Positions 7,971 through 33,734 of a DNA stretch of 64,000 nt are shown here, piece by piece (the stretch's first letter is position 1; each line of letters starts with the position of its first letter). The notes under the pieces were generated by a model. It was not told the origin of the DNA, made no database searches, and worked only from the letters and a program-made list of their open reading frames with translations. The DNA comes from Rhodospirillaceae bacterium (lineage in GTDB: Bacteria > Pseudomonadota > Alphaproteobacteria > Rhodospirillales > UBA2165), in assembly GCA_947467145.1 (NCBI GenBank), contig CANIGJ010000013.1, positions 1 through 64,000 of the forward strand, written 5' to 3'. The position numbers and the translations under genes are program-made.

Positions 7971-8025
7971 CGCGTGACGCTAACAAGCCACGCGGGCGAC
8001 AGCAAACAAGGTAACCGGGGCGGGT

Positions 8026-8775
8026 CTAGTGGACGATGCCCGGCGTCAGGTCCAGGCGGATCCAGGCGAGTTCCTGCTTGATGGCTTCCAACGACGGCTT
8101 GTTGGGCGCCTTCAGAGCCTCGTTGATGATCTCGTTGCGCACCGTGATCGGCAGGCGTTCGAGATGTTCGAGGAACAGGAACTTGATCGACGGACGGATG
8201 GTGTCCGACATCAACAGGCCGAGGATCAGACGCTTGCGGATATCGACGCGCAGATTGCCGGCTTCGGAGAGTTCGAAGAATTCGGAGACGAAGCGGCGCG
8301 GTTCAATATCGCCGCCCAACAGCGCCTTCAGGTTCTTGCGCAGCGCATCGGCGTAACGCTGACGCGAGAGTGCGACGAATTTCTCCGCGTTGCGCTGCAC
8401 CTTGTTGATCATCAGCGGATCGAAATCGCTTTCGGTGATCAGCTCGACCATCTGCTTGACGACCGGATGCTTGGACGTGCCGCCCAGCATCTCGAACACT
8501 TCGCCGATCAGGCGCGAGTCGCGCCCGCGCGGGCTGAGGCGCACCGCAGCGGCCACCGACATCGGGGAATCCGGATCGCGCGTCGCGACCATCGCCAGCG
8601 GCAGCGGATCTTCGTAATCCAGTAGATCGATATCGCGGTTGAGGAGGTGTTCGGGCATCAAGAGCTTGTCGGTCTTGCCGCCATGCACCAGCAGCGGCTG
8701 ATGCGTCTGATAACGTTCACGCAATTCCAACGCAAGTTCGACGCCGCGCTGGCTGATCTCCAAGGCCTTGGCCAT
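8026..8775 (-). CDS. Conserved protein of unknown function
   Basis: A 249-residue, probably soluble protein that I do not recognise. It is rich in charged and helical segments (for example RNAEKFVALSRQRYADALRKN and a LEHLERLPITVRNEIINEAL repeat-like run) and has no signal peptide or membrane segment. It could be an all-alpha scaffold. The ATG at 8775 is preferred because GGAG stands six bases ahead; a GTG five codons upstream is possible. It lies upstream of the MBL-fold gene on the same strand, and its own upstream side is the unusual AT-rich region around 9 kb. Codon use is like that of the neighbours. Confidence 0.75.
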   Translation of the reverse strand: MAKALEISQRGVELALELRERYQTHQPLLVHGGKTDKLLMPEHLLNRDIDLLDYEDPLPLAMVATRDPDSPMSVAAAVRLSPRGRDSRLIGEVFEMLGGTSKHPVVKQMVELITESDFDPLMINKVQRNAEKFVALSRQRYADALRKNLKALLGGDIEPRRFVSEFFELSEAGNLRVDIRKRLILGLLMSDTIRPSIKFLFLEHLERLPITVRNEIINEALKAPNKPSLEAIKQELAWIRLDLTPGIVH

Positions 8776-8940
8776 TCCCCACTCCACCACCGAATTTTCG
8801 CGCCGTGCCGGTTGCGTCGTTATCGACTTAAGGTCCCGGGCCGCGCGTTTTCACACACCGTCGTCACTATCGGGGGGAAATCATTGCCAAAGTATTGAGG
8901 TGCCAACGCTATTCCGGCGGGGGCCGCACAAATACTGCGC

Positions 8941-9296
8941 GAGTCATGAAGAGGCCCTGTCGCGAACGCAGACTCTAAAAACGTGCGAGATGAATCTAAA
9001 TCTCGCCCGTCTGAATCTTGAATTCGTCAATTCGTTAATATTTACCACTTTCTATTTGGACTTATGACTCTGTGGATAACTGTAATGTTGGTTTTAACCT
9101 TTCAAAAACCTTGAATATTGAATCTCAACGAATCAGTTTTATTTATTAATGTGGAAGTTTTACTTGAATAATTTCCAGATAAGACACCGAGTTCGACTGC
9201 GATCACGCCAAGTTTTTCACTACAAAATGCAGTATGACCCCCTAAATATTGTATTTAGCCGGTTGACGGCCACTACGAACCGTCTTACACCGAATC
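8941..9296. promoter_or_regulatory. AT-rich segment with eight GANTC sites and a DnaA box (candidate cell-cycle control region or origin)
   Basis: Between the unknown gene (start 8775) and the small gene at 9365 lie about 590 gene-free bases, clearly AT-rich after about 8990. GANTC, the CcrM methylation site, begins at 8941, 8971, 8992, 9013, 9066, 9120, 9130 and 9292; about one or two would be expected by chance in this length. A perfect DnaA box, TGTGGATAA (reverse complement of TTATCCACA), sits at 9071-9079 directly against the GANTC at 9066-9070. A weak sigma-70-like promoter for the small gene may be TTGACG 9263-9268 and TTACAC 9285-9290, with a GANTC just downstream. No second perfect DnaA box was found here. 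Confidence 0.5.
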
Positions 9297-9364
9297 ATGT
9301 CTTGTTAATAAAGAGACAGTCGAAGCTGGGCGGATGCGACCGGACAGAGAATAGGTGGGGGCCT

Positions 9365-9595
9365 ATGTATACTGTTTATTACACCGAGAACGACTCGCCG
9401 GCGGAACAGCGGATCGGCATGGTTTCGGCCCCGAATTTGGGGACTGCCCAACGGATCGCCGAACTGCAATTCGTCAACTCGACCATCCTTAAAGTGATCG
9501 AACTCACACCGCCGGACCGCGACACGCAGTTCCCCGGCGCCCGTTTCATCCGTGGCGAATTCCGCCCGGTTCTGTACCAAGACGAGATTCACTAA
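9365..9595 (+). CDS. Small conserved-looking protein of unknown function (76 aa)
   Basis: ATG 9365 follows GGTGGGGG by a few bases, a good ribosome-binding site, and opens a 76-codon frame with normal GC-rich codon use although its leader is AT-rich. The protein is acidic to neutral, begins MYTVYYTENDSP and has no signal peptide, membrane segment or cysteine. I do not recognise a family. An in-frame start at 9149 would add an AT-rich, unlikely extension. It stands alone: an unusual regulatory region upstream and a strong intrinsic terminator downstream suggest a single, well-expressed transcript. Confidence 0.7.
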   Translation: MYTVYYTENDSPAEQRIGMVSAPNLGTAQRIAELQFVNSTILKVIELTPPDRDTQFPGARFIRGEFRPVLYQDEIH

Positions 9596-9670
9596 ACAGT
9601 TTTGCTCTTAACGGGGGCACACCACCCCCTTCGGCCGGGCTCAGCTCGCCAAGGGGATCTCGGGGGAAGA

Positions 9671-9715
9671 AGGATGCAGCTCAATGCCTGGGGGAGCTGC
9701 ATCCTTTCTTCGTTT
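9671..9715 (+). terminator. Intrinsic terminator after the 76-aa gene
   Basis: A perfect 12-base-pair stem, AGGATGCAGCTC at 9671-9682 with its complement at 9694-9705, 11-base loop, followed by TTCTTCGTTTT. A smaller GGGGG/CCCCC hairpin lies ahead of it around 9615-9631. It ends the small-gene transcript before the ROK kinase gene. Confidence 0.85.
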
Positions 9716-9834
9716 TAGGGCCCCGTTTCCGCATTTTCCAAAATAGAGTCCTACATAAGACACGAGGACGCGCGTTGTCACAGACGCGACCCTCGGCGAC
9801 AATTCCGCTACCTGACTCTCAGTACGGATTGAAC

Positions 9835-10776
9835 ATGCGGATCGGCGTCGACCTCGGCGGCACCAAGATCGAAGCGATCGTCATCGCGCCCGGCGGCGCA
9901 GAGATCGCACGCAAGCGCGTGCCGGCGCCGCGCGGCGATTATGCCAACTCCATCACCGCCATCCGCGATCTCGTTCTCGCCATCGAAAAGGAAGCCGGCA
10001 TTGCGGGCGCACCAGTCGGCATGGGCATCCCGGGCGCCACCTCGCCGCAGACCGGGCTGTTCAAGAACGGCAATTCGACCTGGCTGATCGGTCATCCCAT
10101 CGACAAGGATTTGGCGGCCGCCCTTAATCGCCCGGTCCGCGTCGCCAACGATGCGAATTGTTTCGCGTTGTCCGAAGCGGTCGATGGCGCGGCCAAAGGT
10201 GCGGACACGGTGTTCGGCGTCATCCTCGGCACCGGCACGGGCGGCGGCCTCGTCGTGCGCCAGCGCGTGCTCAATGGACATAATGGCGTGGCCGGCGAAT
10301 GGGGCCACAATCCCCTGCCCTGGGCGAACGAATCCGAACGCCCCGGCCCCGATTGTTATTGCGGCCATAGCGGCTGTATCGAAACGTTTCTCAGCGGCGG
10401 CGCGTTGGTGCGCACCTATCGGCACGAGACCGGGCACAATCCTGGGCCCGAGGTCGACGCGCCCTGGGTGCATGAAGCGGCCTTGCGCGGCGATGCAGCC
10501 GCCCTCGCTGCCTTCGACAAATACACCAGTCGCCTAGCGCGCGCGCTGGCCCACATCATCAATATCTTCGATCCCGATGTGATCGTGCTGGGCGGCGGCG
10601 TATCGAACGTGGATTTGATTTACGATGCGGTGCCGAAGCTCTGGACCCAATGGACGTTCGGCAACCAAGTGACAACGCCGCTGGTGCGCAATGTGCACGG
10701 CGATTCATCCGGCGTGCGCGGCGCGGCTTGGCTGTGGCCGCCAGAAACAGACAATGCAGAGGACGTCAGGGTGTGA
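9835..10776 (+). CDS. ROK-family sugar kinase (fructokinase / N-acetylglucosamine kinase type)
   Basis: A 313-residue ROK kinase. The N-terminal phosphate loop MRIGVDLGGTKIEAIV, the central GTGTGGGLV and the zinc-binding CYCGHSGCIE signature that defines the ROK group are all present, as is the catalytic aspartate in VANDANCFALSE. Enzymes of this type phosphorylate a hexose with ATP; fructose, glucose, mannose and N-acetylglucosamine are all used in the family, so the substrate is open. I chose ATG 9835 because the family begins right there. A TTG at 9775 with GAGGA ahead of it would add 20 residues. Its stop overlaps the dinB start (GTGTGA), so the two genes are translationally coupled. Confidence 0.88.
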   Translation: MRIGVDLGGTKIEAIVIAPGGAEIARKRVPAPRGDYANSITAIRDLVLAIEKEAGIAGAPVGMGIPGATSPQTGLFKNGNSTWLIGHPIDKDLAAALNRPVRVANDANCFALSEAVDGAAKGADTVFGVILGTGTGGGLVVRQRVLNGHNGVAGEWGHNPLPWANESERPGPDCYCGHSGCIETFLSGGALVRTYRHETGHNPGPEVDAPWVHEAALRGDAAALAAFDKYTSRLARALAHIINIFDPDVIVLGGGVSNVDLIYDAVPKLWTQWTFGNQVTTPLVRNVHGDSSGVRGAAWLWPPETDNAEDVRV

Positions 10777-33054: not shown

Positions 33055-33734
33055 GCGTCTTTGTCGCGCAGGTTGTGCATGATCTCGCGCACGAACGGCA
33101 CCGTGACGTCGCGATGCGCCGACAGCGCTGCCGCATCGATCGCCGCCACGAGGCGTTGCGCCTCGGTCAAGGACCGCTCCATGCGGCGCGCGAGAAATTC
33201 CACGACATCGACATCGACCCGCACCTGACGGTCGGAAAACAATTTCGCCAGCACCGCCTTGATCAATTCATCATCGGGCCGGCCTAAGGCTGCCGCCGGC
33301 GCGCTCAATAGGCGTGAGCGCAGATCGAGCAAGGTGATCTGCCAGGCCGCCGGGGCGTGCCGCGCCGTCATCAGGATATGCCCGCCGCGCGCCGCCACCG
33401 CATTGTAGAGATGCAATAACGCTTCAGGATTTTTCACCCGATCGGCATTGTCGATCAGGCAATCGCCGGTCGCGTTGAGCAGATCGGCAAAGCCATCGCC
33501 GCCGAGCGTTGCCGGATCGATCTCGCGCGCGCCAGCGCGCGCACGGAACACCTGGCCGAGATGACTTTTGCCCGAGCCGGCGGGACCGTAGATGATCAGC
33601 ACCGGGGCGGGCCAATTGGGCCAGGCATCAAGCCAGGCCACCGCGTCGCGGTTCGCCGTCGTGACCAGAAAATCGGCGCCCGACAAAGCAGGCCGCTGTT
33701 CGAAACCGAACGCGAGTTGACCAGGACCTTTCAC
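33051..33734 (-). CDS. hda: DnaA regulatory inactivator Hda/HdaA
   Basis: A 227-residue DnaA-related AAA+ protein. The sliding-clamp binding motif QLAFGF is at the N-terminus, Walker A is YGPAGSGKSHL, a Walker-B-like DCLIDNAD segment follows, and no DnaA DNA-binding domain is present. Hda with the clamp stimulates ATP hydrolysis by DnaA after initiation and so limits re-replication. It starts with GTG overlapping the permease stop as GTGA, making it the last gene of a four-gene coupled operon. Confidence 0.92.
   Translation of the reverse strand: MKGPGQLAFGFEQRPALSGADFLVTTANRDAVAWLDAWPNWPAPVLIIYGPAGSGKSHLGQVFRARAGAREIDPATLGGDGFADLLNATGDCLIDNADRVKNPEALLHLYNAVAARGGHILMTARHAPAAWQITLLDLRSRLLSAPAAALGRPDDELIKAVLAKLFSDRQVRVDVDVVEFLARRMERSLTEAQRLVAAIDAAALSAHRDVTVPFVREIMHNLRDKDA

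Follow-up and report, generated by a model that had tools for sequence, protein, structure and literature searches.

A conserved, helically phased array of GANTC sites between two divergent genes as a likely methylation-sensing control region in Rhodospirillales

Within the window, that is, the whole stretch of 64,000 nucleotides analyzed here, the intergenic region between two divergently oriented genes carries a phased, multisite CcrM array that is real, conserved among relatives, and of greater interest than the replication origin that had also been considered for this position. We consider it likely, from sequence evidence, that the region is a methylation-sensing control region of the CcrM/GcrA type serving the divergent pair and mainly the gene for a 76-aa protein. 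This reading draws on an excess of sites, selection on the GA and TC bases themselves, recurrence, helical phasing, a predicted and conserved promoter, and the presence of both ccrM and gcrA. The features discussed below are as follows, in window positions.

8029 to 8775, minus strand: the "big" gene, encoding a conserved 249-aa protein without a Pfam or NCBIfam match
8776 to 9364: shared intergenic region of 589 bp and 46% GC, flanked by the divergent 249-aa and 76-aa genes and containing the array
8884 to 8899, minus strand: conserved block near the 249-aa gene, reading CTCAATACTTTGGCAA on the minus strand and found in whole or in part in the family
8941 to 9296: GANTC array, with sites starting at 8941, 8971, 8992, 9013, 9066, 9120, 9130, and 9292
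8971 to 9017: exact 21-bp triplet of GANTC sites, starting at 8971, 8992, and 9013
9071 to 9079, minus strand: perfect DnaA box, TTATCCACA, touching the GANTC site at 9066
9263 to 9291, plus strand: predicted sigma-70 promoter of the 76-aa gene (TTGACG, 17-bp spacer, TACACC)
9365 to 9592, plus strand: the "small" gene, encoding a 76-aa protein without a Pfam match

Site excess and composition of the locus

All eight GANTC sites listed in the preliminary description are present, and its estimate that one or two would occur by chance agrees with the 1.74 expected in positions 8941 to 9296 from dinucleotide-preserving shuffles, none of 2,000 of which contained eight or more. For the complete intergenic region (8776 to 9364), shuffles of the same kind gave 2.5 expected sites versus 8 observed (P = 0.0005). 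The array has the highest GANTC density per 356 bp within the window, across which GANTC is scarce (104 sites versus 326 expected). Such scarcity is normal for ccrM-bearing alphaproteobacteria, which avoid GANTC genome-wide and are relatively enriched for it in intergenic DNA (PMC3973325). Elsewhere in the genome, no more than 5 sites fell in any 356 bp of five unmasked 20-kb stretches; a sixth stretch was masked. A genome-wide search for triple sites with gaps of 2 to 30 bp returned 50 places versus 10 for the reversed pattern, and the 14 cluster regions examined after this search reached a maximum of 7 per 356 bp. Since clusters elsewhere do not exceed 7, the locus ranks first among the regions examined, a ranking that covers the window, the five sampled stretches, and the 14 cluster regions.

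The array segment has a GC content of 39%, versus 62% for the window, and coincides with the AT-richest 400 bp of the window. No conserved gene was found between 8941 and 9296, and a 148-aa open reading frame at 9149 to 9595 is merely the frame of the 76-aa gene extended upstream, so the earlier characterization of the segment as strongly AT-rich and free of genes held. A structured RNA was rejected as an explanation because an Rfam scan of positions 8000 to 10000 gave no match above the gathering score. CtrA sites (TTAA-N7-TTAA) numbered zero in the window, with 3 matches over the 40 orthologous regions described below. Downstream of the small gene are genes for a ROK-family kinase and a DinB-type polymerase. 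A hairpin-forming sequence 3′ of the small gene (9670 to 9715; GGATGCAGCTC...GAGCTGCATCC) is retained in relatives and is probably its terminator.

Conservation and recurrence of the array

In a copy of the locus from the same genus (L011), six of the eight GANTC sites are found at the corresponding positions, and three of these six differ in the center base; intergenic identity outside the sites is only about 57%. For comparison, the 15 remaining gapped palindromes with the GANTC layout were retained in this copy at 7 of 39 instances. The spacing of 21, 21, 53, and 54 bp in the window corresponds to 21, 21, 52, and 54 bp in L011, and the triplet at 8971, 8992, and 9013 keeps its 21/21 spacing despite changed center bases. 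Alteration of the center base while GA and TC stay implies selection on GA-TC itself, and change at the free base with GA and TC retained is the pattern that should be expected, as far as sequence can indicate, from selection for recognition by CcrM. Loss of the GANTC spacing in close relatives, which the preliminary description had named as evidence against its proposal, is thus not what the alignment revealed, as both sites and spacing are conserved.

The divergent pair and its intergenic region recur in many families. Where both genes are on one contig, they are almost always divergent neighbors, 0.4 to 1.25 kb apart; the named relatives are mostly MAGs labeled Rhodospirillales or Rhodospirillaceae. 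Recurrence of the array was assessed in 40 orthologous intergenic regions, and arrays were found in six families of the order. GANTC enrichment (7 to 17 sites, P ≤ 0.02) was observed at 7 of 9 loci of the family to which this genome belongs (f1), at all 6 loci of f6, and at the single locus of each of f3, f5, f8, and f16, while seven families (f9, f14, f18, f21, f23, f25, and f26) showed no enrichment at P ≤ 0.02 among the 40 regions. The array is also absent in genome G100. Since most of the genomes whose locus has no array nevertheless have ccrM, the two genes themselves do not require the array. At three loci where the big gene is not adjoined by a small gene (L016 to L018), no array was found upstream of big, a link between the array and the divergent gene order; the exception is L032, with 11 sites in a genome where the small gene was undetected. 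In f21 and f6 (L194:487-1014, L216:15-509), a gene for a helix-turn-helix-like protein of about 165 to 176 aa was observed between big and the array, so that the interval of 1 to 1.2 kb in these families is partly coding, which dilutes the test for enrichment in f21. A search of the genome studied here with the f21 helix-turn-helix-like protein found none.

Helical phasing of the sites

Helical phasing of the GANTC sites is real, significant at this locus, and replicated in the orthologous regions of other families. The preliminary description had based its phasing claim on six of the sites, for which we obtained P = 0.001 under random placement, a value that reflects a post hoc choice. The claim survives when all eight sites are used, with a best period of 10.5 to 10.7 bp (P = 0.048 under random placement with periods of 9 to 13 bp scanned; P = 0.006 to 0.007 under a jitter null with shifts of up to 6 bp). 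Phasing was likewise detected in other genomes of the same family (P = 0.0045 to 0.0125), in seven loci from five other families (P < 0.0005, period about 10.5 bp), and in two loci first looked at once the hypothesis had been fixed (P = 0.0025 to 0.003). Loci of one family share ancestry, which makes their P values partly dependent on one another, and the argument is therefore carried by the agreement between families. A phasing scan of the nonenriched families was not significant. When 88 gapped motifs were compared in the same twelve regions, GANTC came first for phasing (z = 7.5), the next motif reaching 3.1. Other GANTC clusters of the same genome displayed a weaker phasing trend (P = 0.010 at a fixed 10.5 bp; P = 0.076 in the scan), and no phasing was found among its scattered background sites.

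Promoters flanking the array

The predicted promoter of the small gene keeps its TTGAC-17-TA pattern in relatives over many families, often as TTGACA with a TATA-like −10 element. The GANTC site at 9292 abuts the predicted −10 element and is the sole array site near a predicted core promoter in the window; the predicted −35/−10 spacer in the window contains no GANTC, unlike that of the ccrM promoter. Several enriched loci have GANTC at −66, −55, +29, and +51 from the first TTGAC base (P = 0.0055), and the window retains the +29 site (9292) and has lost that at +51. A single GANTC 49 to 52 bp downstream of the first TTGAC base of the small gene recurs in f1, f6, f21, and f26. On the other side of the array, the conserved block at 8884 to 8899 is a probable promoter element of the 249-aa gene.

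CcrM, GcrA, and a possible mechanism

The preliminary description had held that a genome without ccrM would speak against its proposal. We found ccrM (L080:2543-3622), whose product has N6_N4_Mtase and RAMA domains and scores 641 bits against NF050803, the Caulobacter CcrM model, under its cut-off of 830, and gcrA is present as well (C4:70570-70896). Among the 31 genomes searched, ccrM was found in 28 and gcrA in 30. In Caulobacter, gcrA is under DnaA control; a perfect DnaA box was observed here about 190 bp upstream of gcrA (G000:C4:70375-70383).

The ccrM promoter, as an expected CcrM target, provides a positive control. In this genome, the ccrM promoter and start (L080:2435-2572; G000:C22, upstream of 10542) hold seven GANTC sites, and in most relatives the ccrM promoter reads TTGAC-GANTC-N6-GANTC, with the GANTC pair 11 bp apart, indicating that GANTC clusters mark CcrM-linked promoters in the group. 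The locus is like the ccrM promoter in having a GANTC cluster beside a TTGAC promoter and in its 11-bp pairs. However, the sites at ccrM lie in the predicted −35/−10 spacer and just upstream, whereas those at the locus extend across 350 bp of the space separating the divergent pair.

In Caulobacter, GcrA binds methylated GANTC promoters and contacts RNA polymerase, and GANTC-to-GCNTC changes cripple several GcrA promoters (PMC3667746). Conserved GANTC sites also predict CcrM-dependent expression (PMC3973325). Similar to the GcrA/CcrM promoters of mipZ, ctrA (P1), podJ, and tipF (PMC3667746), the locus has GANTC sites upstream of genes in an alphaproteobacterium with ccrM and gcrA, and its promoter-region sites are conserved between relatives. 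In contrast to the Caulobacter targets described there, with one to three GANTC sites each, the locus has 8, and its relatives have up to 17, phased within a long divergent region; its sites are also mostly upstream of the predicted core promoter, and the genes are of unknown function. Membership in the GcrA-type promoter class appears to be the most likely assignment.

Under the mechanism that we propose, CcrM would methylate the GANTC sites of the upstream region shared by big and small, and passage of the replication fork would leave them in a hemimethylated state that persists up to the late-cycle appearance of CcrM. A methylation reader, most likely GcrA with sigma-70 RNA polymerase, would bind several sites on one helix face and might thereby determine how active the promoters on either side are, chiefly the conserved sigma-70 promoter that serves small. 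Methylation of the sites, GcrA as reader, the sign of regulation, and its timing in the cell cycle are what we infer in this scheme. Counting against it are the loci that lack an array and the distance of all but one array site from the predicted core promoters, and selection may have favored a different phased DNA-binding protein, e.g., a nucleoid protein, as the reader. The methylation-sensing element suggested by the preliminary description is supported at the sequence level by the combination of ccrM and gcrA, selected sites, and a phased, conserved array by a conserved predicted promoter. The same observations favor the CcrM/GcrA part of its alternative suggestion, a DnaA/CcrM/GcrA-controlled promoter, whereas the DnaA part fell because the box is not conserved.

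Alternative explanations

The preliminary description had also proposed a replication origin, a reading encouraged by sequence that is AT-rich and GANTC-bearing, as in hemE-linked alphaproteobacterial oriC, and by the perfect DnaA box. We regard the probability that this is the origin of the chromosome as negligible given the position of hemE, the skew of a complete relative, and the lack of conserved DnaA boxes. The usual neighbor of alphaproteobacterial origins, hemE, is found off this locus at G000:C35:12826-13833 with GANTC sites of its own. In the complete relative G070, cumulative GC skew (twenty 20-kb samples) has its minimum at 1.95 to 2.1 Mb and its maximum near 0.5 Mb; hemE, at 1.963 Mb, coincides with the minimum, and the big gene is at 0.184 Mb, the locus lying 1.3 Mb from hemE. 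A separation of 1.2 to 1.7 Mb between locus and hemE was seen in five further relatives with complete or near-complete genomes. Thus, the skew minimum, which had been put forward as a check on the origin, is elsewhere in G070. Within the window, GC skew makes no negative-to-positive turn at the locus, and a search of the locus for strict DnaA boxes found a single one, not conserved. Unlike a hemE-linked oriC, the locus therefore has neither adjacent hemE or other origin genes nor a skew minimum nor a conserved DnaA-box cluster. The box at 9071 to 9079 is where it had been described, and its contact with the GANTC site at 9066 might suggest a DnaA-titration site or a DnaA-controlled promoter overlapping GANTC, which we consider very improbable. 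The same-genus copy lacks this box, and strict boxes in 28 orthologous upstream regions were found, besides the window, only in the distant L037. Furthermore, TTATCCACA occurs 22 times in the genome versus 19 times for the reversed control, a frequency not above chance, and the box is probably accidental or lineage specific. Upstream of hemE (L083:3605-3660, G000:C35), three GANTC sites were observed with a near DnaA box (TTATCCAGA), and this is probably the oriC region. No dnaA gene in the G000 assembly reaches the family cut-off, and dnaA is probably missing from this incomplete assembly; a short DnaA-like match, perhaps of Hda type, was observed at 33060 to 33434 of the window.

MucR is linked to local hypomethylation in alphaproteobacteria. 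It is conceivable, although rather unlikely in our judgment, that the region serves mainly as a platform bound by an AT-preferring silencer, either MucR-like or some other nucleoid protein, which would keep CcrM off the sites. These would then form a locally hypomethylated switch rather than docking points for GcrA. The AT content of the region, the highest of any 400 bp in the window, the weaker phasing of AANAA and AANTT (z of about 3.1), and the local site hypomethylation described for alphaproteobacteria (PMC5172544) would fit such a platform, but GANTC is retained more often than other gapped palindromes, including those rich in AT, and is phased far more strongly than A/T motifs. We also weighed whether the array might be a by-product of base composition or tandem duplication, with an AT-rich spacer gaining GANTC by drift while coding sequence avoids it. 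Genome-wide avoidance and intergenic enrichment of GANTC in alphaproteobacteria with CcrM (PMC3973325) are in keeping with this, and the 21-bp spacing could stem from an old tandem repeat. However, the excess survives dinucleotide shuffles, sites are retained with changed center bases, and other families exhibit phasing in different site arrangements, making a by-product quite improbable.

The divergent proteins and significance of the array

Matches to the big protein were found in 136 of 199 genomes of the order, in some to remote paralogues only; orthologues share 43 to 90% identity within the order, and remote paralogues share about 21 to 28%. Its AlphaFold model is mostly helical, is of low confidence (pLDDT of 63.5), and had no PDB match with an E value of ≤0.001. 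The small protein, recovered by profile search in 48 of 317 genomes, fell into no Pfam or NCBIfam family and has a conserved C-terminal ARFI-G-F motif. Its first 45 residues or so were modeled with good confidence. The best structural match was T7 Gp2 (Z of 6.6, E of 0.18, rmsd of 1.1 to 1.4 Å over 47 to 48 residues), with YkzG, an RNA-polymerase-interacting protein, lower (Z of 4.6); both T7 Gp2 and YkzG are RNA polymerase binders. Since the Gp2 values are below a secure level and within the range of a common arrangement, this weak match is a lead only, by which the N-terminal part may have a T7 Gp2/RNA-polymerase-epsilon-like fold.

Most knowledge of CcrM/GcrA regulons comes from Caulobacter and its close kin, with few sites per promoter and fast regulon turnover (PMC7987155). 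We found no description in the literature of an array of 8 to 17 phased CcrM sites, known GcrA promoters having few. That one locus keeps a dense phased array in several families suggests that methylation is read cooperatively and that CcrM has a conserved linked target beyond the regulon described so far. We can only tentatively suggest that it represents a new methylation-reading cis-element, in which 8 to 17 CcrM sites on one helix face would be selected as an array rather than singly and would integrate methylation cooperatively to control two divergent genes, one of them encoding a small Gp2/epsilon-like protein that binds RNA polymerase. The two uncharacterized gene families are worth testing, and the locus allows the direct question of whether transcription depends on how many GANTC sites are methylated and how these are phased.

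Two further GANTC clusters were observed in this genome. One, between irr and a rubrerythrin-like gene (L081:2469-2666; G000:C34), has TTGACTC and GAGTC overlapping the predicted −35 element and spacer. The other (L079:2479-2606; G000:C7) comprises seven GANTC sites, with spacings of 11, 11, 42, 12, 19, and 32, upstream of a gene for a 305-aa protein with weak similarity to receiver domains.
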